From a virus, in IMG/VR virus record IMGVR_UViG_3300043773_001180, positions 1 to 53,067 of that record: 53,067 bases of DNA; one strand, 5' to 3'. Position 1 is the first letter of the stretch; each line of letters starts with the position of its first letter. The notes beneath the pieces were generated by a model. It was not told the origin of the DNA. It saw nothing but the letters and a program-made list of their open reading frames with translations, and did no database searches. The position numbers and the translations under genes were made by a program. Shown piece after piece: positions 7,262 to 51,046 of the stretch.

Positions 7262-7465
7262 TTACCGTGGTTTAGCACGATGTTTTACCTTACGCCAGAC
7301 GGCAGTGGAATATTGAATCATTCTCTTTTCAAATGCACCATTACGTCTTTCTCTGGTACGTTTGAGTTTCTTTTCAAATCTATCAATTCTGTAATCATAA
7401 CATTTCATCAAAACATTATCATAGATTTGTTTGGCTTTACCTATAAATGATTCTATTTGTTTCAT
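7262..7465 (-). CDS. Small basic protein of unknown function
   Basis: This 67-residue, strongly basic protein is rich in Arg and Lys (KLKRTRERR in the middle) and probably helical. Its ATG overlaps the primase stop codon as ATGA, so it is translationally coupled to primase, and the Mre11-Rad50 fusion follows 40 bp downstream. The position and charge would suit a nucleic-acid-binding accessory factor, but no family is recognised. Confidence 0.7.
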   Translation of the reverse strand: MKQIESFIGKAKQIYDNVLMKCYDYRIDRFEKKLKRTRERRNGAFEKRMIQYSTAVWRKVKHRAKPR

Positions 7466-8418
7466 ACTAATATCCTTTCTTTTATTAAATCGAATCCATC
7501 TACCGATTGGATGGTACTAATATACTGCGAAAATCTTTCAAAACCAAATTCATTTATATCTTTATCTGGAAGTTTTACCATACTCGTTTTAATTCCGTTT
7601 GAAGTCAACCACTCACAAATCTTTATGGAGTCCTTGATTGCATCATTATCAAGGGCAACAATAACTTTCGGTGGTTTACGAATGAGTATCTTTTCTTTTA
7701 GGAGAGGTTGTATTATTTTACCGAATAACGGAATAGTATTAAACCGAGCGGATATAGCATCAAAGACACCCTCAACGAGTGTAATAGGTTCATTCCAATT
7801 TATAAATGAATCAAATCCAATGATGTTTTTAGAAACCGGCGGATTTTTATATTTTGAATTTACGTCATCAAATATAGTTCTTGATACGAAGAAATTTAAG
7901 TTAAAGTTTTCATCATACGATGGAACGATGATTCTACCACCATAGGCACCAGTAGGACAATAACCGATATTATATCTGAAGATGTCTGTTGGTAATATAG
8001 AACGTGTCTTCAAGTAGGTTATTGCCTGTTTTAGTTGCATTGAAACTGATATGTCTGTTACAGATTTGAACTCGATGAGTTTAATAAATTCCGGCGGTAA
8101 TCTTAAATCTTCGTCTCGTTTACCACCCGGTGTATTAAAATTGTGTAGAGACTTTGTTTTTACTATCTTATTTAAAGATTCGTAGTGGTGTTTATCTACC
8201 TTTAATTTTTTAAACAAAGCATATATCGTTCCACCCTTTTCATTAGAGACCCAGCAATGCCAAAAGTTTTGGTTCTTAGAATTAGACTCTAAATTTATCT
8301 CTAACTTTGGTTTGTAGTGTGAAACAAATGGGGAAAAGAAGGAATAGTTGTTGCCGGAGGTCTTCTTTCCTTTACCTAAAACTTGTTCTAATAGATGTAA
8401 TAAGTCTGTGTTTACCAT
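7462..8418 (-). CDS. DNA primase, DnaG/TOPRIM type
   Basis: A 318-residue protein that should make RNA primers for lagging-strand synthesis. The N-terminal region has a reduced zinc-ribbon-like segment (FWHCWVSNEKGGT) like the CHC2-type primase finger, with few cysteines. The TOPRIM core is visible as TLVEGVFDA (Glu) followed by VIVALDNDA (Asp-x-Asp), the metal-binding residues. A longer frame from a TTG at 8436 is possible, but the ATG at 8418 is preferred because a host-type -7 box lies at 8426-8433, so the mRNA would be almost leaderless. No helicase domain is present; the helicase is presumably encoded elsewhere. First gene of the primase / basic protein / Mre11-Rad50 operon. Confidence 0.85.
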   Translation of the reverse strand: MVNTDLLHLLEQVLGKGKKTSGNNYSFFSPFVSHYKPKLEINLESNSKNQNFWHCWVSNEKGGTIYALFKKLKVDKHHYESLNKIVKTKSLHNFNTPGGKRDEDLRLPPEFIKLIEFKSVTDISVSMQLKQAITYLKTRSILPTDIFRYNIGYCPTGAYGGRIIVPSYDENFNLNFFVSRTIFDDVNSKYKNPPVSKNIIGFDSFINWNEPITLVEGVFDAISARFNTIPLFGKIIQPLLKEKILIRKPPKVIVALDNDAIKDSIKICEWLTSNGIKTSMVKLPDKDINEFGFERFSQYISTIQSVDGFDLIKERILV

Positions 8419-8425
8419 AGTGAAA

Positions 8426-8457
8426 CAAATATACAACTATTTGGGGGGATTTACAAA
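8426..8457 (-). promoter_or_regulatory. Bacteroidota-type promoter for primase operon
   Basis: In the sense direction, TTTG (8457-8454), 20 bp, then TATATTTG (8433-8426). This matches the Bacteroidota -33 TTTG / -7 TAnnTTTG consensus. The predicted start site falls within a few bases of the primase ATG at 8418, implying a leaderless or near-leaderless transcript. Confidence 0.75.
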
Positions 8458-8460
8458 TGA

Positions 8461-8994
8461 TTATTTTTGATGTGCAAAATCCCAAAGGTTTTTTAGTTCA
8501 TCAGATGAATGTGGAACTATATTTTCCAACTCACGTTCTTTTCTCTTTACAGAAGTTATCGAATACGTCTTTATTACCTTTACCTTACCAACTTCATTTT
8601 GTGGTAGAAATATCTCATTTCCAAATCCACGAGAAACCTGTTTTAGAAATTTTGGATCTACTTGTGATAAATCTAACAAAGCAGCAAAACCTCTACCCGT
8701 CTTTTTATAGTTGTCCAACCAGTTTTCTACATCACTGGTAATCATCAATCCCTTTGTTCCACCCTCACCACTACCCATAGAACTCATGTCTCGTGGCGAA
8801 TAATCGGAAGAAGGTTTGAAATCAGATGAATCGGTTATATGCCAATAATACCCGTGACCTATATCTACACTGAAGAATTTTTCGAATGACTGATAGTCGT
8901 TGAATTTCTTGGCGTGTGCAACCAGTACATTCAGAGGAAATCTGTTGTAATTTTTTTGAGTTTCCTCGTTCAATATGTCTTTGAGTTTTATCAT
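8461..8994 (-). CDS. Protein with capsid-targeting-like leader; possible ADP-ribosyltransferase fold
   Basis: A 177-residue protein beginning MIKLKDILNE, a leader shared with the next two genes. Its first 24 bases are identical to those of the gene at 9616. The body contains GYYWHITDSSDF, GLMITSDVENWLDNYK and GNEIFLP, a spacing reminiscent of the H-Y-E type ADP-ribosyltransferase fold; this is only a suggestion. The leader ends in Leu-x-Glu, the form of the T4 gp21 prohead-protease cleavage site that follows the capsid-targeting sequence of Alt and internal proteins. I infer a protein packaged in the head and injected. It is the last gene of a three-gene operon, starting 16 bp after its neighbour's stop. 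Confidence 0.75.
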   Translation of the reverse strand: MIKLKDILNEETQKNYNRFPLNVLVAHAKKFNDYQSFEKFFSVDIGHGYYWHITDSSDFKPSSDYSPRDMSSMGSGEGGTKGLMITSDVENWLDNYKKTGRGFAALLDLSQVDPKFLKQVSRGFGNEIFLPQNEVGKVKVIKTYSITSVKRKERELENIVPHSSDELKNLWDFAHQK

Positions 8995-9010
8995 GGTATA
9001 TTCACAATAC

Positions 9011-9616
9011 TTAGGTTGTTTGTATCTTTATTTTTCGTTCCCAACCACGTTCATATTTGGTTACACCAATGAGTTCCAGCTTAGAGTCGTCAACTACCGT
9101 GGTTTCCTGTTCATTCAAATTATTGAAGTAATCAAATGGTATCGCAACATTACGTGGCGGTGTCTTTACAACCACGACGTATGGTGTAGTTCCCATACCC
9201 TTTGTTGCACCAGGCGTATCTTCATCATACCAACTACTCGTTATATCCACTATATTTTCCAACTTTCCTTTGTCTGAGACCCAGTGTCTTCCCAACTCTT
9301 TTTTGTTCAAGTACCGTAAAGATTTCAACCACAGGACTCTGTATAGGATTCCCCCCTCTTCATAGTATTGGGCAACTTCATATAGATTTGATAATGCCTC
9401 AAATATGTAGTACGGCTCATATGAACCGTAGTAACTTCTTATACTACCGAGGTGTTTTTCTTCGATGTCCTTCTTTGTAATTTTCTCATTCCCGACTTGA
9501 ACTAACACGTCATCGGGTTTGTAGCTATTCCACTCTTTCGCGTATTCTTCTTCTGCCGAGTACTCGTGAAGTTTAGATGGATGCAATTCAGACAATATGT
9601 CTTTGAGTTTTATCAT
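9011..9616 (-). CDS. Putative ADP-ribosyltransferase (R-S-E type) with capsid-targeting-like leader
   Basis: A 201-residue protein starting MIKLKDILSE. Features suggesting an arginine-type ADP-ribosyltransferase are an early Arg in ILYRVLWLKS, a GRHWVSD segment, a central strand TPYVVVVKTP and a late Glu-x-Glu in NEQETTV. In R-S-E enzymes the ExE motif carries the catalytic Glu, and T4 Alt is a head-packaged enzyme that modifies host RNA polymerase. The shared leader ending in Leu-x-Glu supports the Alt analogy. The canonical Ser-Thr-Ser motif is not clear, so the enzyme call is tentative. No strong ribosome site precedes the ATG. Confidence 0.6.
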   Translation of the reverse strand: MIKLKDILSELHPSKLHEYSAEEEYAKEWNSYKPDDVLVQVGNEKITKKDIEEKHLGSIRSYYGSYEPYYIFEALSNLYEVAQYYEEGGILYRVLWLKSLRYLNKKELGRHWVSDKGKLENIVDITSSWYDEDTPGATKGMGTTPYVVVVKTPPRNVAIPFDYFNNLNEQETTVVDDSKLELIGVTKYERGWERKIKIQTT

Positions 9617-9635
9617 GGGAGATTTACAATAATAA

Positions 9636-10082
9636 TTAGTCGGCGTTTAATTTTGCCATCATCTGTTGTAAACGTAGTTTTCTTTCCGCCGCCGGATCTT
9701 CTTTTGTTTTATACTTGATATAACCAAACGAAACTAGAACATCAAACGTGTACTCCCAATCGTCCATGCCGGTGGACATCGTGTATGTTTTACCCTTGAA
9801 TGAAATTTTATTTACTCCAGATTTGTTCCAAGTACGAGATGGATCGTATGCCTTGGAAAGTTGCTTCCATGTCTTATCATCTACACGAAATTTATCAACA
9901 AACCACTTTTTAACATCACCATACCATTTTCGATAACCTTCTGTATTAGTGATGTTATAGCCTTTTTTGTGTGCATCTGGAAACAATGACTTATACATCT
10001 GTTTGTATTTCTCGTATGCTTCTGAATCTGTATTGGTCGAAATACTTACTGCCTCAGTTAGTATATCTTTCAACTTTATCAA
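9636..10082 (-). CDS. Unknown protein with the MIKLKDIL-E capsid-targeting-like leader (TTG start)
   Basis: A 148-residue protein whose leader reads MIKLKDILTE when started at the TTG at 10082. That TTG has a GGAG ribosome site six bases upstream. Starting at the earlier TTG (10094) would add four residues and place the site inside the gene. The leader codons differ from those of its two neighbours (AAG TTG against AAA CTC) while the residues are the same, so the peptide is under selection. The body is charged and Trp/Tyr-rich and matches no family I know. First gene of the leader-peptide operon, 23 bp downstream of a TATATTTATA element. Confidence 0.75.
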   Translation of the reverse strand: MIKLKDILTEAVSISTNTDSEAYEKYKQMYKSLFPDAHKKGYNITNTEGYRKWYGDVKKWFVDKFRVDDKTWKQLSKAYDPSRTWNKSGVNKISFKGKTYTMSTGMDDWEYTFDVLVSFGYIKYKTKEDPAAERKLRLQQMMAKLNAD

Positions 10083-10105
10083 TCGAATCTCCAAATATTA
10101 TATCA

Positions 10106-10115
10106 TATAAATATA
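10106..10115 (-). promoter_or_regulatory. Candidate phage late promoter element (TATATTTATA)
   Basis: The sense strand reads TATATTTATA, 23 bp upstream of the TTG start at 10082. It precedes the three leader-carrying genes, which are predicted to be packaged in virions, so late expression would fit. Confidence 0.5.
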
Positions 10116-10120
10116 CCCAA

Positions 10121-10528
10121 TCACAAACATTCATTCAACCATTCTTGTGGAATTTCTTTCTTTGACCATAACCAACCACGTTTCTCACAGAATTGGGCAT
10201 ACGTTGTTTTACTTCCCTTATAGAGTTTTGCATTTGGATTCTGAAAGACAAACCTGATGTCTATATTTGGATATTGATCAAATATCAGTTCCATCTTGTC
10301 TCTATCGGCTTTTACCCATCTACCTTTTGTTTCAATATACATCGTGTTACCACTTTTCTTTTGTAAAACAAAGTCAGGTGTGTAGGTGTGATTTGTGGCC
10401 GGTTTAATATACGAAAGTTTTTCTATTTCGTAACCGAATTTTTTTTTAGAGGTTTTAAGGGATTCATTTATGGTATCTTCAAGTCCCGATTTAAATCCAT
10501 GTTTTATGGCAACTGCATTTCTTTTCAT
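10121..10528 (-). CDS. Holliday-junction resolvase, T7 endonuclease I (gp3)-like
   Basis: A 135-residue nuclease resembling T7 gp3 over most of its length. Visible are an early Glu (SGLEDTI), YTPDF with the catalytic Asp, and YIETKGRW with the Glu-x-Lys pair, together the PD-(D/E)xK active site. Downstream, IRFVFQNPNAKLYKGSKT and YAQFCEKRGW match the T7 family pattern. The enzyme cuts branched DNA, resolving recombination intermediates before packaging. The ATG at 10528 is chosen over a TTG at 10540 that would overlap the previous gene. It lies directly after a structural gene, in the late-type operon starting at 19320. Confidence 0.92.
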   Translation of the reverse strand: MKRNAVAIKHGFKSGLEDTINESLKTSKKKFGYEIEKLSYIKPATNHTYTPDFVLQKKSGNTMYIETKGRWVKADRDKMELIFDQYPNIDIRFVFQNPNAKLYKGSKTTYAQFCEKRGWLWSKKEIPQEWLNECL

Positions 10529-10529
10529 C

Positions 10530-12272
10530 TTACGCGTCAAATCTAATTATAACATTCATGTCCACATCATCTCTTTTTTCAAGTGGAGATGACAACTTAG
10601 CAACAGCAACAAGGTCTCTTTTATCATTGTATAATCCAATAGTTGTTATGTATGGATTAAAGAAAGAACTTGTTGTATAATCTTCAACTTGAATGGCGTA
10701 TGGATTTTTATCTTTATACACACTCAAATTTGTGGTAAAATTAAATTCGGACTTTCTAATTTTACAAGTAATTTCGTGTTCATAAAAAGTTGCGGTACTA
10801 CGAAAACTTCCTGTGAATCCATAATCAAGATTTGAATAATCATAATTACCAGTTCTTCCTAAAAAGGCATTTGCATATTTTGGTCTTGGGTCTGATATTA
10901 TAGCAATACCACTTTTATAGAATATGTTACCAATTCTATCAGTTTGATAAGCATATCCATTTTGGAAACTATTATTTCCTAAATATGAAATTTCCGTTGA
11001 AGACAATCCTTTATTATAAATACGAATTTCGTCTAATGACCCCGAAAACATTTTATTCGTTGTACCATTACCACCTATAAAAAAGTTATTTTCATTCGTA
11101 ACGTTTGAATAAATACTAGATGATACTGATGCATTTAACACACCATCTACCCAAATTTCAAATTTACTCGCAGTTTTTTGACAAACTATATGGTGCCATT
11201 GATTAGTTGTTAATTGTGATGATGTTACTTCCTGTGTCTGTATTCCCGAACTTTGTCCAAATTTTAATTTATAAGGAGTTGCAGACGTTCTATTATCGAG
11301 TCTTATATCAAACGGATATTGTGATGATGGAATTTCTTCGTAAGAATTACCAACCGGTCTTCCTGTTTTACGCACATATTTAGTATCACCGTCTATTGAA
11401 GTTCTTTTATCAAACAAAGAATTGTATGTATAAACTTCATTTGATTGTGTGGGTGGTACATTTATCCAAAAACTAAATGCAAAATCCTTTTTGTATGTGA
11501 AATTAAAGTTAGATTGATTTCTAACATCAAAATACCCACCGGCTAATGCAACCGATACACCACTTGATTGTGAGGTATCAGTCGTTGGTATTCCACTCAA
11601 ATATGTTATTTGTTTTGGATTAACTATACTAATGGTATTATCGTGATTTGAAGTATCGAGAACATAATGTAGTAATTTATTTCTGAAATTATACTCTCTG
11701 TATTTCTCGTTAAATCCAACATTTAATAGAAGGTATTGACTATCAACAAATTTCGTGGTATCAAATGTAGTATCTACAATATCACCGTTTGAATTATCCA
11801 TTATATCGTAATTCAAAGAAGATGTTGTTGTATTAAAATTATGGAATTTAAATGTTCCACGTCGGATTCCTTCACCAAAAACCCCCTGTGGCATAGAAAA
11901 CATAGAACTTGATTCGGCGAGATACAAGTTACGATTAAATTCGGTCAATAACGTCGGGTCTTTATCTTTTCTATTATCTGTATAAAAATTATGGTCTAAA
12001 TAATACCATAGCATTTTTGGATCAACACTCTGTGTGGTAAATTGACGTGAATATAATGAAGATGATATATTTACAACATTACCATAATACAAGTGATTTT
12101 CAGGATATAAAACACGATATACGTTTATATCAAAATTTCTATAATAGTTTGAGTGAGAAACTTCTGTTTTTAATTCCCATTTTTTGTAAACTTCAAAAGG
12201 TTTAACAGTATAATCACCCTTTCTTAGTTTCTTCCAAACTAAACTTACTTTATTTCCAAATTGAAATGACAT
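10530..12272 (-). CDS. Virion protein with LamG-like domain and shared C-terminal module
   Basis: A 580-residue structural protein. Residues ~245-445 form a concanavalin/LamG-like jelly roll: FAFSFWINVPP, NQWHHIVCQK, FEIWVDGVLNA and GSLDEIRIYNKGLSSTEI. LamG-like domains often bind glycans, so surface attachment is plausible. The C-terminus (YITTIGLYNDKRDLVAVAKL, then a charged tail) is shared with the next four genes upstream. The N-terminal ~240 residues differ from those neighbours. It follows the 577-residue paralog with a one-base gap. I infer a tail or baseplate decoration protein built from a common anchor plus a variable domain. Confidence 0.8.
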   Translation of the reverse strand: MSFQFGNKVSLVWKKLRKGDYTVKPFEVYKKWELKTEVSHSNYYRNFDINVYRVLYPENHLYYGNVVNISSSLYSRQFTTQSVDPKMLWYYLDHNFYTDNRKDKDPTLLTEFNRNLYLAESSSMFSMPQGVFGEGIRRGTFKFHNFNTTTSSLNYDIMDNSNGDIVDTTFDTTKFVDSQYLLLNVGFNEKYREYNFRNKLLHYVLDTSNHDNTISIVNPKQITYLSGIPTTDTSQSSGVSVALAGGYFDVRNQSNFNFTYKKDFAFSFWINVPPTQSNEVYTYNSLFDKRTSIDGDTKYVRKTGRPVGNSYEEIPSSQYPFDIRLDNRTSATPYKLKFGQSSGIQTQEVTSSQLTTNQWHHIVCQKTASKFEIWVDGVLNASVSSSIYSNVTNENNFFIGGNGTTNKMFSGSLDEIRIYNKGLSSTEISYLGNNSFQNGYAYQTDRIGNIFYKSGIAIISDPRPKYANAFLGRTGNYDYSNLDYGFTGSFRSTATFYEHEITCKIRKSEFNFTTNLSVYKDKNPYAIQVEDYTTSSFFNPYITTIGLYNDKRDLVAVAKLSSPLEKRDDVDMNVIIRFDA

Positions 12273-12273
12273 A

Positions 12274-14007
12274 TTAGTTTAATCTCAATCTTACTTGAAA
12301 AATATATTCAGTACCAGCATTCTTTAAAAGAGGTTGTGGTAATTTACCAACTGCAACTAACTCGTTATTTCTATTGTAAAGACCAATAGATGTTATGTAT
12401 GAATTTGGTTCACGTCTGAACATTAAATTGTTTACTTCACCCTTACTACCGGTGATATACGTATAATTATTGGAATAATTAAACTCATAGTAATTTGCTC
12501 TACAAAAGTATGTTTCAACTAATGATTCTTCGGTAGAACGTGCAAAGAAAGAGCCGGTTTGGGTTCTGGATAAAGTTTGAACGGAAGAACCACTTATTGA
12601 GATAAAAAGTTTTCTAATATTATCACCATCAATAGATGCAGTAACTGTATTAAATGAACAAGATTGGTCTAACACCACACCGTCTAATATAATCAATCCC
12701 ATTTTTGGAAATACAATACCCCATGCATCATCATCGGTATCACCATATACACCTTCTTGTAAAGATCCAGATGTTACATAATAGTAGTCATATATTCCTT
12801 CACTATCGGTAATAACTTCGGCAGTATCTTTGCTTTCATCGATAAGGGTGTAAATTACATCAGAGGTTTGATTCAAACTAAAATTACTGCCAGTATTGTA
12901 TAATTGATTTGCACTTGATGAAAGTGGGGAAAGATATAATTGAAAATTACCCGGATCAAGTCTATCTTTAAATAAATCCCTATCTATTTGTATTGCATAA
13001 AAATAATCGCCATTTTTCCCATTCTTGAATTTAAATTTTCCTTTGTTTGTACCAAAGCATTCCAACAAATACTTTCTGTACATTGTTTTTGAAGGAAGTA
13101 AATCTTCTCCGTTTTCAATATACTTTGATCCAGACCCACTTATATGTGCAAAACTTATATCGAATTGATGATATGAGTCTTCGGAATTTTGTGGGTTATT
13201 ATAAATAGGAATATAATACTTTTTGTTTTTATCAGTTAGAGAACCGGTGTAAAATGTTGATAGTTTCTCATCCATACATTTAAACAAACCACGAGTTTTA
13301 TAGTTCATCGTCGGTACTGCATAATCAGATACTCGTGATAATTTTTTAAAACAATAAACGTCATCCTCATCTTCAGTTAAATCTTCGATTATCTGGTCTA
13401 TAAATTCAGAAAATGTATCTAATTCATCCATAACATCTTTATCCGGCGTCATAATTATTGCAGTTTTACTATCACCTATTATGTTAGATGTCAATGAAAA
13501 AGTTATCATGTCATCGCTATTTGTAATAACGATTTCAGTTGATGACGGAAAGTTGTTATTTTTTTGAAATTCGATATAACTTTGAATTAAAAAAAGTAAT
13601 TTTTCATTTGAAATGAAATTAATTTTTTTAGAATTTATCGTATAGTCTTCGGTTGGGTTTCCCGTTGCATTCAAGGAAATTCCTGTTAAACTAAGGCCTG
13701 ATTTTCTTAATTTAAGTTCGGAGATAGACTCTTTTATTTTATATGAAAGTTTTTCATATTCTATTTCCGGAGTAGAACCACCTGTAATATTGGATAAGAC
13801 AAATGTTTCAGGATATTTCTCAACCAAATCGATAAAAAATTTAATAGATACTTCTTCACAAAATCTATCCAACATATCCTCATGTATATCATTTTGATTT
13901 AATATAGATGGGAATGGGGTATTTTTTAGTGTATCAATTAACGTATAGTTATCAACATTTGTTAAATCCAACGTATCAATATTTAAGATGTTTCTGGCAT
14001 TATCCAT
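12274..14007 (-). CDS. Virion protein, member of five-gene paralog array
   Basis: A 577-residue protein. The first ~220 residues are unique, acidic and predicted largely helical. Residues ~230-577 follow the plan of the other paralogs: a segment with FAHISGSGS, a kinked region with YRKYLLECF, then FKDRLDPGNFQLYLSPL, GLIILDGVVLD, and the C-terminal TSIGLYNRNNELVAVGKL. Spacing to both neighbours is one base, so the array is translated as a block. No enzymatic motif is seen. Probably a tail/baseplate structural component; exact location unknown. Confidence 0.75.
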   Translation of the reverse strand: MDNARNILNIDTLDLTNVDNYTLIDTLKNTPFPSILNQNDIHEDMLDRFCEEVSIKFFIDLVEKYPETFVLSNITGGSTPEIEYEKLSYKIKESISELKLRKSGLSLTGISLNATGNPTEDYTINSKKINFISNEKLLFLIQSYIEFQKNNNFPSSTEIVITNSDDMITFSLTSNIIGDSKTAIIMTPDKDVMDELDTFSEFIDQIIEDLTEDEDDVYCFKKLSRVSDYAVPTMNYKTRGLFKCMDEKLSTFYTGSLTDKNKKYYIPIYNNPQNSEDSYHQFDISFAHISGSGSKYIENGEDLLPSKTMYRKYLLECFGTNKGKFKFKNGKNGDYFYAIQIDRDLFKDRLDPGNFQLYLSPLSSSANQLYNTGSNFSLNQTSDVIYTLIDESKDTAEVITDSEGIYDYYYVTSGSLQEGVYGDTDDDAWGIVFPKMGLIILDGVVLDQSCSFNTVTASIDGDNIRKLFISISGSSVQTLSRTQTGSFFARSTEESLVETYFCRANYYEFNYSNNYTYITGSKGEVNNLMFRREPNSYITSIGLYNRNNELVAVGKLPQPLLKNAGTEYIFQVRLRLN

Positions 14008-14008
14008 G

Positions 14009-16480
14009 TTACCAATTCAATCTTATTTTGATTAATAAATCATCATCCGATGTCTTCTTAATCGGTTTACTTAATTTTGCAACCGCCAAAAGTTCTCTCT
14101 TGTCATTATAAAGACCAACCGATGTAACGTATGTAGTAGGATCTTTTTGAAAACAAACATTTCTAAGTTTTCCTGAAGAAAATCCAGATAAATCAGATAT
14201 AAATGTTGGATTATTACTATAATTGGCATTTGGAGGTGAAACTCTCACAAAGTAATGATTTGTTGTTTTATATTTAACGTTTCTTGCCTTAATATGTGAA
14301 TTAAGAACACCCGAACCACTTATTGACGTAAATAATTTCATAGCATTATCACCAGCGATATTACTTCCCGTAACAGTATTAAAGTTCATCAATGAATCCA
14401 TCTTTGCCGGGTCAAATATCATAATACCGAGATTGGGATAAAATTTACCGTAAGTCGTTAACAATGAACCCGTACCACTCGAATGAATACCATCATTTAA
14501 ACTACCACTAACAATATCGTATGAAACGTATGGATCTTCACTACAACTTGTCAAATCAGACCTATCACCGGAATTATCAATAAAGGTGTATATTGTTGAA
14601 CCAGATGGTTGAACATTACTTCCGGTAAATACATTGTTGGCATAAGAATTACCATTTAACGGTCTAAGTGCAATTTCAAAATTACCAGGATCAATTCTAT
14701 CACTAAGTCCTGTACGATAAAAATTTATAGCATAAATATCTTCTGATTCAGATTCCACACCGGAAGAATAGAATTTAAATTTTCGTTCGGGTTCGTCTAA
14801 TGCAAGTAATCTATATTGTGAATATATTGCTCTTGTTGGCGTATCATTTGTTTCACCCGAAGATGCAATAGATCCAGAACCACTTACGTGTCCATAAGCA
14901 ACTGCAAAATATGGCGTAGAATCACAATCACAATCAGTTACTTCATAATAATATTCTTTTGAAGAAGTTGGTTGTGTAGAACTTGTTAAATAACAACTCA
15001 TAGATTGTGATAGATTAAATAAACCACGAGTATTTGCAGTTACTTTACCGTCAACAATATCCTTACCAAGCATTAATGGGTGATAAATTTTAATAGACTC
15101 ATCTTGACAGTCACCTCTAACGGAGAAAGGTACAAACGGGTCTAATCTACGACCGGGTGGTAAAACTAGTTTTGCAGGAAGTCCATCGGTATATGTTTCC
15201 GTTGAATATTTAAATTCAGTATCACCAGGACATTTTATTTTAACTCTAACTATGTTATATTGTTTACACCCACACGGGTCAGTTGGGTCATTCAATACAG
15301 AATCTTCTTCATAAATTTCTTCACATTGACATTCCTTTAGATTTCTCTTAGACTCATCAAACCTTTGTGAAATCCAAGTTGGGTCTGATTTTTGTGTTCT
15401 CAATACATTAATAATGTGCGTAAAAAAACACTCATTGTCTTGATACTGATATGTAAATGTTGATACAAATGTTGTTACTACGACTTGTCTGAATCCAACA
15501 AAACAAGTATTATTAGGTACTGAACTTAATTCAGAATCTGTATTAGTAGTTGATGATATTTCTCTAAAGCCCGTCTCGTCTATTCTAAAATACCCGGTGG
15601 GGATTTTTATATTTAAAAATTCCTCTTCTGTTACTTCTGGTTTTAAATTCCAAGTATCGTTACATGGGTCATCGCCACCACCTATTTTTCCACAATCTAT
15701 TTCACAATTTTTATTTGTGTTAACGGCATCATCAAATGGAATTATCGCCTGAGCAGAATTTGATATTGCATTTGCGTTTGTTGCCAACGATAGTGTTGTA
15801 TTTAAATCCCCACTCGTTGATACCTCATATAAAATTTTCCAAGTAAAGTTGTTTCTTCTACTTGAATTGTAGAAATTAGATAGAGATGTAAATCGTGTAT
15901 CGGTAAACACAGTTTTATTATCTAACACAGAAATCTTTGTTAAATTATTTGGGTCATAATCCCACACATTTGACCAAGATACCGCATCAAATTTTAATTG
16001 TTTTTTTCCACTTACACAATCACTATAATAAAGAAATTGAGATATATCAATAGTTGCAATTATTGATTTACTACCCGGTCCGATGGTTGTTATACCGGAA
16101 ATTCCACCAGATGTCTTATCACAGATTATATCGATATACAAGTTACATCCAGACCAATATGGATTTCCAAAGTAATAAACACAGGAATCTGTTGTGTTAT
16201 TGGTTGAAGATATTGGTGATATAGTATTTGTACCGCCGGTAGATGTAATTGTGGGTGAAAGAACGACTCCACGTTGAGATGGGGAATCGGCAATAGGACT
16301 TGGCATTATTGAATTTTGTTGAGCAAGTAAAACAGCAGATGCCGCTTCTTGTGCTGCCTTTTTTATAACATCAGTCTGTGATTGTTGTTGTAATAACAAC
16401 TGTGCATTCAAAATATTTTGAATTGCAAGATTTTGTGCCGAGTTCTGAACATCTAGATTATCTGTGATTTGGTTTGCCAT
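14009..16480 (-). CDS. Large virion protein, member of paralog array with Cys-rich N-terminal extension
   Basis: At 823 residues this is the longest of the paralogs. Residues 1-60 are Gln/Ala-rich and probably a helical oligomerisation segment. Residues ~100-480 are unique and contain many cysteines, several in close pairs (CQCEE, DPCGC, DCDCD). The C-terminal ~340 residues repeat the array plan: VAYGHVSGSGS, DTPTRAIYSQYRLL, LSDRIDPGNFEIALRPL, LGIMIFDPAKM and TSVGLYNDKRELLAVAKL. The cysteine clusters could bind metal, but this is not shown. Inferred to be a virion appendage protein sharing an anchor with its neighbours. Confidence 0.75.
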   Translation of the reverse strand: MANQITDNLDVQNSAQNLAIQNILNAQLLLQQQSQTDVIKKAAQEAASAVLLAQQNSIMPSPIADSPSQRGVVLSPTITSTGGTNTISPISSTNNTTDSCVYYFGNPYWSGCNLYIDIICDKTSGGISGITTIGPGSKSIIATIDISQFLYYSDCVSGKKQLKFDAVSWSNVWDYDPNNLTKISVLDNKTVFTDTRFTSLSNFYNSSRRNNFTWKILYEVSTSGDLNTTLSLATNANAISNSAQAIIPFDDAVNTNKNCEIDCGKIGGGDDPCNDTWNLKPEVTEEEFLNIKIPTGYFRIDETGFREISSTTNTDSELSSVPNNTCFVGFRQVVVTTFVSTFTYQYQDNECFFTHIINVLRTQKSDPTWISQRFDESKRNLKECQCEEIYEEDSVLNDPTDPCGCKQYNIVRVKIKCPGDTEFKYSTETYTDGLPAKLVLPPGRRLDPFVPFSVRGDCQDESIKIYHPLMLGKDIVDGKVTANTRGLFNLSQSMSCYLTSSTQPTSSKEYYYEVTDCDCDSTPYFAVAYGHVSGSGSIASSGETNDTPTRAIYSQYRLLALDEPERKFKFYSSGVESESEDIYAINFYRTGLSDRIDPGNFEIALRPLNGNSYANNVFTGSNVQPSGSTIYTFIDNSGDRSDLTSCSEDPYVSYDIVSGSLNDGIHSSGTGSLLTTYGKFYPNLGIMIFDPAKMDSLMNFNTVTGSNIAGDNAMKLFTSISGSGVLNSHIKARNVKYKTTNHYFVRVSPPNANYSNNPTFISDLSGFSSGKLRNVCFQKDPTTYVTSVGLYNDKRELLAVAKLSKPIKKTSDDDLLIKIRLNW

Positions 16481-35778: not shown

Positions 35779-36441
35779 TTATAGTCCCGGAGGTGCAGTT
35801 GGATTATCGTAATCTTCACTTGGATTGTATTTGATACTTCCTGTCCATGAACCACTTGCAATAAGACGTATTGACAATCCCATAGTCATAGGGGTTGTTA
35901 CTGAAATCAAAGAACTATTCGACCAGTATGCTCTGTATCCAGGTGCAGTAGTTGCCGATGCAGAAGTTGCAGACCACCAATTAGAACTCCATTCCATATC
36001 AAAAAATTCACCAGTCTGTCTCATATAACCCGAAGGATTGCCATAGAAATAACTTGAATTGTCACCATTTCCATCGATGTCTTTATCTAAAGAACTCCAA
36101 TTTTCAGTATTCTTTAGTTTATACCCAGCTACTTTTTCCCCACCCAAATAAGTTACGAGTGCATTCCATTGTGTAGTTGTTGGTACTTTAAATTGTGCAT
36201 TTGGCACTATCTGTTTGGATGTTAATGATGCACTAACAACATACCAATTATAAAGTTTACCGTGTAAATCTCCATTGGAAGAATCGTCATTGTAATATCT
36301 CCATGCCGGAGTGCCGGCAGCACATAAACTTTCCCATTCTGCATCAGTCGTTGCGTGTTCGATTGGTGTTCCATCGGCAAAACAATCAACGTCTAAGTTG
36401 TGAGTGTCCCATTGTTGGGAACCTATTGTTACTATCGGCAT
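35779..36441 (-). CDS. FISUMP-domain protein (Fibrobacter succinogenes major paralogous domain)
   Basis: A 220-residue protein made almost wholly of the FISUMP domain: IGSQQWDTHNLDV, GTPIEH, AWRYYNDD, LHGKLYNWYVV, FKVPTTTQWNALVTYLGGE, VAGYKLKNTENW, YMRQTGEFFDMEWSSNWWSA, and GLSIRLIASG. The domain is typical of surface proteins of Bacteroidota and Fibrobacterota, often with lipoprotein signals; no signal peptide is seen here, so a virion-bound form is more likely than a secreted one. It is a single-gene unit with its own terminator and a near-match to the late element upstream (36476). It may bind cell-surface material, by inference. Confidence 0.85.
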   Translation of the reverse strand: MPIVTIGSQQWDTHNLDVDCFADGTPIEHATTDAEWESLCAAGTPAWRYYNDDSSNGDLHGKLYNWYVVSASLTSKQIVPNAQFKVPTTTQWNALVTYLGGEKVAGYKLKNTENWSSLDKDIDGNGDNSSYFYGNPSGYMRQTGEFFDMEWSSNWWSATSASATTAPGYRAYWSNSSLISVTTPMTMGLSIRLIASGSWTGSIKYNPSEDYDNPTAPPGL

Positions 36442-37160: not shown

Positions 37161-37568
37161 TTAACCACGAGATTTAGTAGTACGTTTAGGTTTGATAGTT
37201 GCAGGTTGTTTCTTAGTAGTTCTTGGGTAGTTATCAATAGGATTTGCCGTATTGGCCCTCGGTGTTCTAACTTTAGGGGTTCTCGATTTAGTTTCAACGG
37301 GTTTAGATGTGGATATTTCCGCAGTCTCGTATGTAAATGCCCCACCACCACGCCAATTATCGTTTGGATTTTCTTCTCCAATATAATGTTGTTTAAGTGC
37401 AGTAATCACGGCGTCCTTATCGGAAATAGTTTCACTAAGAGTTTGTATCTGGCGTCTGTTGTAATCGGAAATAGTTTCACTAAGAGTTTGTATCTGGCGT
37501 CTGTTGTAATACCAAAATCCAAGTCCAACTAAGAAAACAACGGTGAATAGTATAAGTAAATTAATCAT
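37161..37568 (-). CDS. Membrane-anchored protein with internal 15-residue duplication
   Basis: A 135-residue protein with one N-terminal membrane segment (LLILFTVVFLVGLGFWYY). Two identical 15-residue copies of the sequence YNRRQIQTLSETISD follow, then a Lys/Arg/Thr/Pro-rich basic tail. The topology (short outer end, basic inner tail) suggests a cytoplasmic nucleic-acid- or protein-binding tail. No family is recognised. It starts eight bases after the preceding gene's stop. Confidence 0.72.
   Translation of the reverse strand: MINLLILFTVVFLVGLGFWYYNRRQIQTLSETISDYNRRQIQTLSETISDKDAVITALKQHYIGEENPNDNWRGGGAFTYETAEISTSKPVETKSRTPKVRTPRANTANPIDNYPRTTKKQPATIKPKRTTKSRG
37421..37510. repeat. Perfect 45-bp tandem duplication
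   Basis: Two identical 45-bp units (37421-37465 and 37466-37510) lie inside the membrane-protein gene and keep the frame. Identity at every base implies a very recent event, or an assembly artefact. Confidence 0.95.
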
Positions 37569-44064: not shown

Positions 44065-46203
44065 TTATGCGGATAGCAATTTAGTATTGATAGATTTCGC
44101 GATACTTGTTATCTCGTTGGATGATGAAATACGAACGGCATTATCACCATAACATTCTTTCACCTCTGTCCAATCACGACCACCACTCCAACCACTTTGA
44201 ATAAAGTATGTTAGAAACTTTATACCATTACGTTGCATCTTTTTCATCTGTTGTTTAGAATGTTTCTGAGCAGCAGAACCGTTGTACAAAAACGTAGTAG
44301 AGTTTCTTGCAGAATACAACATATATGGCTGTCCATCACAAAGATTTATAAAATAAGCATCATTGTTACGTGATTGTGAAATTATCTCACTCATTATACC
44401 ATCAAAACACAATCCTTCTGGAGTTAGTCCGGTGCAATCTAATCTTGGGAATATATCTAAAATATCTCGAATACTATTTTTCTTTGAATCAAAGATATAC
44501 ATCAAATAAGGAATTTGTGTACTTGCCCCAAACCGATTACGTCGTGATGCATTTGAAGAATCAGAAAAGGTACTACGAACAGAAACTTGAATGTGTACAT
44601 TCGTTAACATTTTAGATACGGTTGCCATCATCGCTGCAAACTTCAATGATTCTTCCCACTTTGAACCTTGCATAGAACCCGATTGGTCAACCGATATGTG
44701 AATGTATGCGGGTTTATACGATGATATATTTATCTTTGAAAATACATCAAAGTTATCAAAACCAATTTCGTGTAACAATCGGTTATCCAATTTACCGCTG
44801 TCTAAACGTGTTGACTTTGTTACACGTTCCTCATTACGAACCTGAAGTTTCTTTGCGAGAATTTTTCCGTTTTTAACACCTTCCGATATAAGATTATATG
44901 CAAATGTATAACCCCAGCCGTTGGAATCTCTTGTTACACCATAAGGAAGTCCGGCACCACTATCCATAAAGATTTTGTTAACATTTCTTACAATGTAAAG
45001 TGGAACACCACTAGCATTATCGGAAGAAAACTCAGAGTTCTGTCCAACAATCTTTTTGTCCAAATCAATAGACGCAAATCCGGAGATTAACAAATTATCG
45101 TTTTTAGTTACAGACTTCTTTTTCAAAGTACCATTTGTAACTTCTAATTGTTTTTCATGTAATTTGTAAATGGTTTTTACCATAGAATCTGAAAGATTTT
45201 CCATCTGGTTAGTCTCGTTGGTATCTTCTGAATCCATGTCATTTTGAGATTCGTTGGTATCTTCTGAATCCATGTCATTTTGAGATTCGTTGGTATCTTC
45301 TGAATCCATGTCATTTTGAGACTTCTCATCGTTATCATTTGTTTCCGACGAATTATCTGTACCATTACTCGTATTGTTGGTAGTGGAAGGTTTTTCGTTT
45401 TCCAAATAGTGACGTATTGTACTAAAAATATCAAAGGATAGGTTTAGACGTTTATGGGTTTCATCCAAACGTGTGATATTTTGAAGGTCTATAAGTTTGA
45501 AGATTTCTTCTAACTTAGGTAGTGCCTTTAAGTTACGTTTTGGGTTACGGATATTTACAATGTGGTAAATGTAATTATCCCAATTAGGTACGGAGTATTG
45601 TAATGACCACATACCTTTAACGAGTTTATCACTACCAAAATATTTTTGGTACAACGCCGCATAATACCCACGATAACCAGGAGCTGCCTTGTACGTCATT
45701 GCATCAATATACAAATCTTCAATTACGTTAAAAATAGTTTTAACGAAGTATTGCTCTCTATAATCAAGAGCATCTATGAAATCACGTGAAGTCTTAAAAT
45801 CTGTATAAAGAATGTGTGATGATTCGTGTAAGGCAAGACCAACGGCGGTATCAAATTCTTTTTCCTGAATGTTCGCGGAAAGTGTTATAGTCTTACCGTC
45901 TGTGTAAGATTCACCCGTTGTGTGATACTTTACGGCTATATCATTTCGTCCTGTTAAGATACGAACAAAGTTTGAAATGGCACGTTGGTATTGAGCCAGT
46001 TGAAGATAGTCAAACTTCTTTTCCGTTTCTACGGATTTATAGTCATTGAAGAATGACTGTTTGCGGTCAAAGATACTATCCTTCAACCAATAGTTTGAAG
46101 ATTGGTATGAAGATTCACGTTTCGTCTGCCAGATACTTGAACGATTGTAACCAATCGTGCTTGACTTTTTATCTGAAAGAAACGAGTAGTTTGGCTTAGC
46201 CAT
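44065..46203 (-). CDS. Zincin-like and VWA-domain protein (CobT-like)
   Basis: A 712-residue protein with two recognisable parts. Residues ~124-128 are HESSH within GLALHESSHILYTDF, an HExxH zinc-metallopeptidase motif. After an acidic, Asn/Ser-rich linker comes a VWA domain with the metal-ion-dependent adhesion motif DQSGS near 504 (IHISVDQSGSMQGSKW), then later LDCTGLTPEG with the conserved Thr. Large phages often carry such proteins, sometimes with a MoxR-type AAA ATPase; none is seen nearby. The linker holds three copies of a 12-residue acidic repeat. Role unknown; a chelatase-like or chaperone-like assembly function is possible. It has its own host-type promoter. Confidence 0.85.
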   Translation of the reverse strand: MAKPNYSFLSDKKSSTIGYNRSSIWQTKRESSYQSSNYWLKDSIFDRKQSFFNDYKSVETEKKFDYLQLAQYQRAISNFVRILTGRNDIAVKYHTTGESYTDGKTITLSANIQEKEFDTAVGLALHESSHILYTDFKTSRDFIDALDYREQYFVKTIFNVIEDLYIDAMTYKAAPGYRGYYAALYQKYFGSDKLVKGMWSLQYSVPNWDNYIYHIVNIRNPKRNLKALPKLEEIFKLIDLQNITRLDETHKRLNLSFDIFSTIRHYLENEKPSTTNNTSNGTDNSSETNDNDEKSQNDMDSEDTNESQNDMDSEDTNESQNDMDSEDTNETNQMENLSDSMVKTIYKLHEKQLEVTNGTLKKKSVTKNDNLLISGFASIDLDKKIVGQNSEFSSDNASGVPLYIVRNVNKIFMDSGAGLPYGVTRDSNGWGYTFAYNLISEGVKNGKILAKKLQVRNEERVTKSTRLDSGKLDNRLLHEIGFDNFDVFSKINISSYKPAYIHISVDQSGSMQGSKWEESLKFAAMMATVSKMLTNVHIQVSVRSTFSDSSNASRRNRFGASTQIPYLMYIFDSKKNSIRDILDIFPRLDCTGLTPEGLCFDGIMSEIISQSRNNDAYFINLCDGQPYMLYSARNSTTFLYNGSAAQKHSKQQMKKMQRNGIKFLTYFIQSGWSGGRDWTEVKECYGDNAVRISSSNEITSIAKSINTKLLSA
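45216..45322. repeat. Three 36-bp tandem repeats in VWA gene linker
   Basis: Three nearly identical 36-bp units encode SQNDMDSEDTNE on the minus strand. They stay in frame and lie in the acidic linker, so length changes would be tolerated. Confidence 0.93.
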
Positions 46204-49155: not shown

Positions 49156-49980
49156 TTAGTTTGTTTTTGTAATCATATCCATATAGTATTTGTAAGTTTG
49201 GTGTTGTTGGAATACTTGTTTAATTTCATTTAACGCTATCTCTGCCTCTCCTTCTGTTTGGAAACAATTACCAAGATTGTATCGGTCACGAAACATAGCA
49301 CAATTTTGAATAGTGGTTGACTGACGGATTCTACCGATTTCGTCGATAAACCAATAAGATTTACCTTCATTTGGTTTCCAACGGGGTGGTACATACGGGG
49401 TAGGAACGTTAATAACAATCGGTCTCCATACGTCTCCGTCTTTAAATGCATCAAACCAATTTATCAGATGAACTTCATTATCTTCTCCAACTACCCATAC
49501 ATCACCATCTTGAAATCGTTGAGAGTTATATCCATCGAATCCACACGGCAGTCTATCGGTTATCCAACCATCGTTATCATCCATAGGGATGAACGGTTTA
49601 ACCGACCCCGACCACGAGTCCTTTCTATTGTCGTTTGTGTTTTTCTGTCCTGTTTCCCGTCTATATGTCACACCATCATCAGATTCCGTAATTGCCCCTG
49701 CCATAAAAAATCCACCACAGATTCTAAGCCACGGTTCATCGTCCTCTACACCTTCTTCAATCCAAAAATGAAATCCACCAGAATGATAACTTCCCTTAAA
49801 TACCGTTTCTTGTAACGCTTCTTCCAACATAACCCTAAACTCGGATTCCGTAACCGAATCACCCGGTGTGTGCCACCATTTCCAACGAACCGCTTTCATT
49901 GCTGTTACACATCGTTCGACTTCAAAGTATTCTTTTATAGACTGGACTTGTTCTCTTAAAACTTCACTTCTACTTAACAT
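49156..49980 (-). CDS. Two-domain protein ending in an ITDRLP-type module
   Basis: A 274-residue protein from the ATG at 49980, which has GGAGGAG nine bases upstream; a TTG at 49998 is less likely. The N-terminal ~145 residues (MKAVRWKWWHTPG, FHFWIEEGVEDDEPWL) are a separate domain. The C-terminal half (GWITDRLPCGFDGY, RWKPNEGKSYWFIDEIGRIR, YNLGNCFQTEGEAEIA) is the same module as the two short proteins upstream. The W-x-T-DRLP plus GNCFxTxxEAE module is widespread in phage and prophage proteins of unknown function. An internal anti-host or recognition role is speculation. Confidence 0.75.
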   Translation of the reverse strand: MLSRSEVLREQVQSIKEYFEVERCVTAMKAVRWKWWHTPGDSVTESEFRVMLEEALQETVFKGSYHSGGFHFWIEEGVEDDEPWLRICGGFFMAGAITESDDGVTYRRETGQKNTNDNRKDSWSGSVKPFIPMDDNDGWITDRLPCGFDGYNSQRFQDGDVWVVGEDNEVHLINWFDAFKDGDVWRPIVINVPTPYVPPRWKPNEGKSYWFIDEIGRIRQSTTIQNCAMFRDRYNLGNCFQTEGEAEIALNEIKQVFQQHQTYKYYMDMITKTN

Positions 49981-49984
49981 AGAT

Positions 49985-50095
49985 TTACTCTCCTCCAAAT
50001 AAATTTATAAATGCAACCAAGAATTTGTACGCAACCCATATTGTTCCTACTAAAACAGACAACATGAGAAGAATTGAAAATAGTAGTGAAATCAT
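49985..50095 (-). CDS. Very small membrane protein (36 aa)
   Basis: The frame runs from ATG 50095 to TAA 49985: one hydrophobic segment (ISLLFSILLMLSVLVGTIWV) and a short tail. AAAGGA lies six to ten bases before the ATG. Its final codons supply the GGAGGAG ribosome site for the downstream gene, which supports it being part of the operon. Function unknown. Confidence 0.6.
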   Translation of the reverse strand: MISLLFSILLMLSVLVGTIWVAYKFLVAFINLFGGE

Positions 50096-50123: not shown

Positions 50124-50177
50124 TTAATAATTAGACTCTTTAGGGTTCGGCAGCCTGTCGGTTATCCACTCACTCAT
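50124..50177 (-). pseudogene. Truncated third copy of the ITDRLP gene
   Basis: The ATG at 50177 opens MSEWITDRLPNPKESNY and stops at 50124. The first ten residues match the two intact copies upstream, and the ATG sits in the same AATGAGTGA overlap as in the intact pair. The sequence then departs, so this is the 5' stub of a lost or never-completed copy. It might still be translated. Confidence 0.75.
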
Positions 50178-50553
50178 TGTTCAGCTCCTTATGATAGTTT
50201 AGTAATGTCTCACGCACACGTCGCGCGGCTTCTTGGGCTTGGGCTTGGGTTTTGAAACAGTTGCCGAAGTCGTATCGTCTGAGGAAACGATATTCGTTAT
50301 CCGTAGCAATTAAACGATGCTCAAAGCCGGAGTCGGTTACATAATGGTATAGTTGCTCACTCTCAGGCTTCCACCGCTGCGGCTCTGTCTTGACGTAGGG
50401 TTTTGGCATTGCTATGTGCGTCCAAGGTTGTCCGTGCAAAACTGTACTATAATGTTGGTTTTTAAGTCCATCACATACATAGTAAACCCAAACCGTTTGA
50501 TTTACATCTCCGTCTTCTTTAGTCGGCAGTCTATCAGTTATCCACTCACTCAT
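50170..50553 (-). CDS. ITDRLP-type protein, copy 2
   Basis: A 127-residue protein (MSEWITDRLPTKEDG, RWKPESEQLYHYVTDSG, NCFKTQAQAQEAARRVRETL, LLNYHKELNNE). It is a paralog of the gene upstream, and both ends are nearly identical between them. The start ATG overlaps the preceding stop. Codons here are visibly richer in G and C than those of surrounding phage genes, which suggests later acquisition. Function unknown. Confidence 0.78.
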   Translation of the reverse strand: MSEWITDRLPTKEDGDVNQTVWVYYVCDGLKNQHYSTVLHGQPWTHIAMPKPYVKTEPQRWKPESEQLYHYVTDSGFEHRLIATDNEYRFLRRYDFGNCFKTQAQAQEAARRVRETLLNYHKELNNE

Positions 50554-50923
50554 TGTTCAGCTCCTTATGATAGTTAAGTAAAAGTTCACGCACTCGGCTC
50601 GCAGCTTCCTGTGCCTGAGCCTCTGTTTGAAAGCAGTTGCCAATTGCATACCTATCATGATCACCACTAGTGCCTAGCCATGCATTGCTGAACACGCAAT
50701 GCGATACGACTGAGAAGTATATCTCGTTGACATTCGGCTTCCACCGCTGCGGCTCGGGCTTGACGTAGGACGCGGGGATTTTTATTGGCATCCAAGGCAT
50801 ACCAAGTTTAATTTCATTACGTCTTCTTAAATTTGGCAAGCCGACTATTTCCTGATACCACACAAGACCTAGAAACCCATCTTCGTATTTCGGCAGCCTG
50901 TCGGTTATCCATTCTGTATTCAT
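50546..50923 (-). CDS. ITDRLP-type protein, copy 1
   Basis: A 125-residue protein starting at ATG 50923 with AAGGA upstream (a longer frame to 50962 runs into the attC-like element). It shares EWITDRLP, RWKPNVNEIYFSVVS, NCFQTEAQAQEAASRVRELL and the identical end NYHKELNNE with copy 2, while the middle diverges. Also relatively GC-rich. Tandem duplication with diversification of the centre is inferred. Confidence 0.78.
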   Translation of the reverse strand: MNTEWITDRLPKYEDGFLGLVWYQEIVGLPNLRRRNEIKLGMPWMPIKIPASYVKPEPQRWKPNVNEIYFSVVSHCVFSNAWLGTSGDHDRYAIGNCFQTEAQAQEAASRVRELLLNYHKELNNE

Positions 50924-50956
50924 GTTGTTAGTCCTTATTCTAAATTTAACGGCACA

Positions 50957-51046
50957 TAACAAGGGTTTTGCGTAATAGCCCTATCAAGTGTCGTGGTTAA
51001 TTTTAAGTTTCTACTAAGGGCTACTACGCAAAGCCCTGATACGTTA
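50957..51046. repeat. attC-like imperfect inverted repeat
   Basis: A 25-29 bp arm (AGGGTTTTGCGTAATAGCCC core) at 50957-50981 pairs with a second arm at 51018-51046 (AGGGCTTTGCGTAGTAGCCC in reverse complement) around a 36-base loop, flanked by TAAC. The two cores differ at two positions that remain G-T pairable in RNA or single-stranded DNA. The overall shape resembles integron attC sites and related Bacteroidota intergenic repeats; the strict RYYYAAC/GTTRRRY core is not matched exactly. Confidence 0.6.

Follow-up and report, generated by a model that had tools for sequence, protein, structure and literature searches.

A short leader shared by unrelated proteins of T4-like phages as a probable capsid-targeting sequence

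In the viral record IMGVR_UViG_3300043773_001180 of IMG/VR (53,067 nucleotides; analyzed whole and called the window, or G000, here), we found three neighboring minus-strand genes, P1, P2 and P3, whose products share a 10-residue N-terminal leader, MIKLKDIL[N/S/T]E, on otherwise unrelated bodies. We propose that MIKLKDIL-x-E is very probably a capsid-targeting sequence (CTS) with cleavage of the T4 gp21 type, by which the proteins bearing it would be packaged into the phage head, trimmed and injected into the next host. This capsid-targeting reading passed every computational test applied to it. The leaders and the proteins that they precede lie as follows:

8965..8994, (-) strand: P1 leader, MIKLKDILNE
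8461..8994 (8461-8994), (-) strand: P1 cargo, 177 aa; body without assigned family, with a 98% homologue that adjoins the primase gene in the relative L002
9587..9616, (-) strand: P2 leader, MIKLKDILSE
9011..9616, (-) strand: P2 cargo, 201 aa; has LYRVL and E-x-E in common with the X169 cargo of L002
10053..10082, (-) strand: P3 leader, [M]IKLKDILTE; TTG start, with GGAGA ahead of it
9636..10082, (-) strand: P3 cargo, 148 aa; 65% identical orthologue, with a GTG start, in G070/L003

The initial annotation of this DNA had pointed to three adjacent proteins with a common leader, 24 identical bases in two of its copies, different codons in the third, and unrelated bodies, and each of these observations was borne out. 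P1 and P2 have 24 bases of leader DNA in common (ATGATAAAACTCAAAGACATATTG), whereas the P3 leader (TTG ATA AAG TTG AAA GAT ATA CTA) encodes the same residues with other codons, using AAG, TTG, GAT and CTA where P1 and P2 use AAA, CTC, GAC and TTG. Between P3 and its L003 orthologue, the leaders differ synonymously, at the free residue 9 and in the start codon, and nowhere else. The bodies of P1, P2 and P3 gave no cross-match in phmmer.

A search for the leader elsewhere, which the same annotation had suggested and which was run in part, showed that it recurs in related phage genomes, while no further open reading frame (ORF) in the window matches it. A back-translated leader pattern found at least 120 stretches in IMG/VR (a lower bound), compared to a single one in the whole collection for a scrambled peptide of equal degeneracy (MLIDKLKIxE, one permutation only). 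A relaxed pattern matched 32 times in 37 records, 31 of these at the start of an ORF, against one match for a reversed-pattern control; over all leader loci examined, 183 matches were N-terminal and one was a chance site elsewhere. The 182 unique leader proteins fell into 88 body clusters, 57 of them singletons (blastp at 1e-3, a threshold at which remote homology would join some clusters), and in an alignment of 86 representatives conservation was confined to the leader positions. In the record G025, seven leader genes form an array at 9136-14438, broken by a single gene whose match is weaker. Because the leader is encoded by 138 distinct DNA 24-mers among 184 sequences, and because the leaders of P3 and its L003 orthologue differ synonymously, we conclude, as had been proposed, that selection acts on the peptide.

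The residues that are kept match those reported to serve targeting and processing in T4. The T4 protease gp21 cleaves after L/I-x-E, and the first 10 residues of the internal protein IPIII suffice for packaging, with residues 4 and 7 serving targeting and residues 8 and 10 processing (PMC9026906). IPII and IPIII of T4 start with MKTYQEFIAE (read from NC_000866); MIKLKDILNE has the same length, and its L4, I7, L8 and E10 match the targeting and processing positions, giving hydrophobic residues at 4 and 7, Leu or Ile at 8 and Glu at 10 in a short N-terminal leader common to otherwise unrelated proteins. When the scan was run without requiring Glu, 77 of the 91 distinct proteins nonetheless had Glu10, and in 7 of the 14 others a short shift brings back [LI]-x-E (MIKLKDILLSE, twice; ...ILINE, ...ILLQE, ...ILLNE, ...DILLE and ...SILDE). 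Furthermore, the T4 gp23 site E65|A66 aligns with QL[LIV]xE|[ASVT] in related major capsid proteins, a site assigned by alignment, and the leader ends in the same motif. Both the retention of Glu10 or [LI]-x-E and this alignment support the earlier suggestion that the Leu-x-Glu end has the form cut by gp21.

A gp21-like protease, the second check suggested at the outset, was sought in part, on relatives, and is present in the long leader-bearing records and in the closest named relative, Microcystis phage Mel-JY01, which encodes a gp21-type protease together with T4-like head genes. Of 39 records with the leader, 19 encode Peptidase_S77 (PF03420, the gp21 type); the eight records of at least 115 kb all do. 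In two large phages, the S77 match falls in two parts within one open frame (G003:C1:71514-72392, 367 aa; W04, LR756508:156507-158102, 576 aa), which points to an in-frame insertion in the prohead protease, possibly an intein or an extra domain. The window itself is linked to these genomes by its gp6, which shares 51% identity with the gp6 of two S77-encoding leader records (G028 and G007) and 76.6% with that of Mel-JY01.

The head operon runs terminase, portal, ..., gp21, core protein, S21, gp22, gp23, and in several genomes the conserved protein directly downstream of gp21 itself starts with the leader or a variant of it (MIKLKDILKE, MANIKLKDLLNE, MSKRIKLKDILNE, MAKLKDLLKE), with additional leader genes between gp21 and gp22. 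Wherever a leader stretch includes gp21 as well (23 cases), the leader genes are on the gp21 strand, and 19 of the 23 lie 0.8-4.4 kb downstream of gp21, encoding the core protein in 8 cases and other proteins in 11. The ribosomal protein S21-like gene between gp21 and gp22 (L147, L242, L250-L253 and L292) is annotated as RpsU in Mel-JY01.

We suggest the following course of events. The leader, chiefly its residues 4 and 7, would bind the scaffold or core during prohead core assembly, so that tagged proteins are built into the prohead. At head maturation, the gp21-type protease would cut after Glu10 ([L/I]-x-E|); the propeptide would leave, and the mature body would remain with the packaged DNA and accompany it into the next host. 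The bodies would be exchangeable cargo, probably early-acting effectors, anti-defense or host-modifying proteins, with P2 and P1 perhaps resembling ADP-ribosyltransferases (ARTs), and this cargo would turn over by gain and loss at hot spots, the junction between the endonuclease and primase genes being one.

Other explanations of a common leader were weighed against the same data. That the tagged proteins go to the prohead core but serve structure or assembly there, instead of being injected, is unlikely, though it is the alternative that we take most seriously. It would accommodate the largest leader cluster, the conserved protein whose gene lies between gp21 and gp22; this protein recalls the T4 core proteins gp67 and gp68, which are degraded and not injected. 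Most leader bodies are, however, sporadic and found at sites of gain and loss, and for some the match is to an enzyme family (Nudix, RNase_T, zeta toxin, ART, RimK, 2H ligase), neither of which is like assembly parts. It is improbable that the leader stays unprocessed and addresses proteins elsewhere, be it to the tail or baseplate or to a membrane or compartment of the infected cell. While the tagged genes in the window come after tail-fiber genes on the same strand, and bodies resembling cell-wall hydrolases exist, the leader has no hydrophobic signal-peptide stretch, its [LI]-x-E end is the rule of the prohead protease, and outside the window leader genes associate with gp21 and not with tail genes.

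Still less credible is a common start that reflects a nucleic-acid feature, either an AT-rich translation-initiation region or a recent gene conversion or duplication homogenizing the 5' ends. The 24 bases identical in P1 and P2 and a 12-bp repeat flanking the cassettes would fit such an origin, but the codon and shift data go most of the way to refuting it: the many distinct 24-mers, the synonymous differences between the P3 leader and its orthologue, and the retention of Glu10 or of a shifted [LI]-x-E all speak against it, as does the spread of the leader over about 88 body clusters.

Several observations weigh against a capsid-targeting role, or limit how far it extends. The group does not carry the leader throughout: Mel-JY01 has just two close leader genes, MIKLKSLLQE|I at 60276-60926 and MIKLMSLVTE|T at 62056-62718, and the immuto phage (42% identical) has none. 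Our literature search found no virion proteomics for this group, Mel-JY01 and immuto included. The window is a fragment without head genes and does not show this phage's own protease; its head genes are out of view because the record is only 53,067 bases long, and PF03420 gave no match in 30 relatives of the window, which are tail-region fragments of 11-60 kb. AlphaFold2 models were unusable, with a mean predicted local distance difference test score of 36 for P2 (3 sequences) and 48 for P1 (2 sequences). Lastly, lysozyme-like and M23 peptidase bodies carry the leader (L008, L031, L055) and need not be injected; they could be head-packaged cell-wall hydrolases or reflect a wider use of the tag, and they call for caution in regarding every body as a cytoplasmic effector.

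The position of P1-P3 marks them as cargo that is gained and lost between relatives. In the window, P3-P2-P1 stand between an endonuclease and a DNA primase gene, with two copies of a short repeat at the borders:

10121..10540, (-) strand: endonuclease, bounding the cargo hot spot on its upstream side (phrog_945, E 1e-45; synteny)
9618..9629, (-) strand: 12-bp cassette-boundary repeat TTGTAAATCTCC, ahead of P2
8445..8456, (-) strand: 12-bp cassette-boundary repeat TTGTAAATCCCC, ahead of the primase
7462..8436, (-) strand: DNA primase, bounding the cargo hot spot on its downstream side (phrog_47, E 1e-28; synteny)

The junction is empty in six relatives (20 bases) and in Mel-JY01. It holds homologues of P3 and P2 (P3' and P2') in L003, and an unrelated 169-aa protein (X169) with a P1 homologue (P1') in L002; other leader genes at the junction encode a 154-aa protein (L060, L112), a 205-aa protein (L054/L314) and another in L313. 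The repeat, with the consensus TTGTAAATC[TC]CC, precedes P2, P1' and the primase and has just two copies in the window, both at cassette borders. Outside the window, copies lie at L310:16488, where the copy takes in the final codon and the stop codon of the endonuclease gene, at L002:5065 and 5616, and at L003:3951. Short-homology exchange of cassettes is therefore a likely route of cargo turnover. No homologue of P1 or P2 turned up in a named phage. A pattern search of viral contigs gave no close relative of P3; one was found later via L003.

What the bodies do can be approached through only a few matches. P1-P3 gave no significant family in Pfam, PHROG and PDB searches; the best PHROG match of P1 had E 0.03, and P3 matched TIR at E 0.05, short of the cut-off. 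P2 and X169 have LYRVL (YR) and E-x-E in common (E 0.04), the basis for suspecting an R-S-E ART in P2; this stays a suspicion because profile searches and AlphaFold2 gave nothing. For P1, the string YYWHIT ... GNEIF raises a weak suspicion of an HY-type ART. The corresponding fold or profile was not found, as P1 has no Pfam or PDB match and its low-confidence model has no PDB counterpart (best Foldseek E 1.4). Since neither P1 nor P2 gave a usable structural model, no function is supported for either body. Across the leader set, Pfam domains comprise lysozyme, M23, RimK, Nudix, RNase_T, ART exoenzyme, 2H ligase, zeta toxin and NT5C, and PADLOC, run on the leader proteins, gave a generic DEDDh exonuclease as its best match and no recognizable defense system.

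Among known systems, the closest likeness is to IPI, IPII and IPIII of T4 (Tequatrovirus), which likewise place a 10-residue leader with hydrophobic residues 4, 7 and 8, Glu10 and an L/I-x-E end on unrelated bodies, and whose gene content varies among relatives (PMC3012670, PMC12373910). Unlike the T4 proteins, the phages here use MIKLKDILxE in place of MKTYQEFIAE, are distantly related and largely uncultivated T4-like viruses, and have a far bigger, mostly unrecognized set of bodies; those of P1-P3 gave no Pfam or PHROG match to the IPI, IPII or IPIII families. T4 Alt, a head-packaged ADP-ribosyltransferase of the Alt/VIP2 R-S-E clade, also has a leader ending in a Glu motif cut by gp21, and the R within LYRVL and the E-x-E of P2 and X169 recall R-S-E ARTs such as Alt. 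However, P1-P3 have no profile match to Alt or to any ART family, and the likeness of the body lies in the motif alone. In phiKZ and SPN3US, N-terminal propeptides of ejection proteins are removed after Glu by a prohead protease of family S80 (PMC5694885); there, several propeptides exceed 100 residues, compared to 10 here, and the protease found here is S77 (gp21 type). Polyvalent proteins and MuF-linked effectors are predicted to be head-packaged, injected enzymes, including ARTs, Nudix and 2H proteins (PMC5512222, PMC9503650), but they combine many domains on one long polypeptide or ride on MuF or portal, whereas the proteins described here are separate, small and marked with one short tag. 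A literature search for the leader string in open-access full text found no paper. Judged from sequence comparison, this would be a T4 CTS-like system with a new leader in a new phage group, and we found its scale of cargo described nowhere in the open-access literature.

Other lineages have shared leaders of their own. Homologues of a YHFT-type (HY-ART) cargo family, itself with a weak Tox-ART-HYD1 match (E 0.011), bear other leaders in other phages, common to neighboring genes: MKIxNLYESLLEE on adjacent genes in Alishewanella phage Slicko01, MKIQLAVA in Pseudomonas phage Lu11 (JQ768459, 159400-163007) and MExxLALA in HRDY3 (PQ015379, 103512-104824). In Slicko01, five genes in a row have starts resembling MKIxNLYESLLE. 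When N-terminal 4-mers were counted without bias, the leader ranked first in Slicko01 and Lu11 and shared first place in HRDY3. A list of virion proteins exists for PaBG, a relative of Lu11. Beyond these, MKKFNEFANELAE was sighted once in Vibrio phage K566, and MxK[FL]xxLLFE twice in LR756508. Records with a leader of the [LI]-x-E type have S77; neither the Lu11 nor the HRDY3 genome, with Ala-ending leaders, gave a PF03420/S77 match, and a protease of different specificity may lie behind these leaders. The pattern fits a putative tag matched to the maturation protease of each lineage. We regard it as an evenly balanced question whether tailed phages in general use lineage-specific short tags tuned to scaffold and protease, with exchangeable injected-effector bodies such as HY-type ARTs moving between lineages by acquiring the local tag. 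If this is true, reading the tag would list the injected effectors of a phage from its sequence alone.

Other features of the window stand apart from the leader. The initial annotation had credited the operon with a late-type element, which we reject as a late promoter: TATAAATA at 10106-10113 is on the plus strand and directed away from the minus-strand operon, and its motif occurs at chance frequency (17 copies in the window, 11.6 +/- 3.4 expected). Three neighboring minus-strand paralogues (49156-49998, 50170-50553 and 50546-50962) have a W-I-T-D-R-L-P block and a second block, NCF.T...A, and the minus-strand genes at 44065-46203 and 37161-37568 contain in-frame peptide repeats (SQNDMDSEDTNE-type three times, YNRRQIQTLSETISD twice). 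A "Major paralogous domain" protein is encoded at 35779-36441 (-) and at 155528-156169 of Mel-JY01. This kind of protein is associated with Bacteroidota, in contrast to the Microcystis culture from which Mel-JY01 was recorded.

The turnover of cargo at the hot spot suggests an arms race, by analogy with that between the T4 internal proteins and GmrSD enzymes. To our knowledge, the sets of proteins carried in the head and injected are not known for nearly all phages. Because dozens of unrelated proteins in relatives of this phage bear the same tag, it may be possible to tell from sequence alone which proteins are head-carried and injected. The tag would then point directly to candidate early effectors, for anti-defense and host takeover, in an abundant and mostly metagenomic T4-like group; it would predict exact mature N-termini, and many hypothetical proteins would gain a likely location and time of action.
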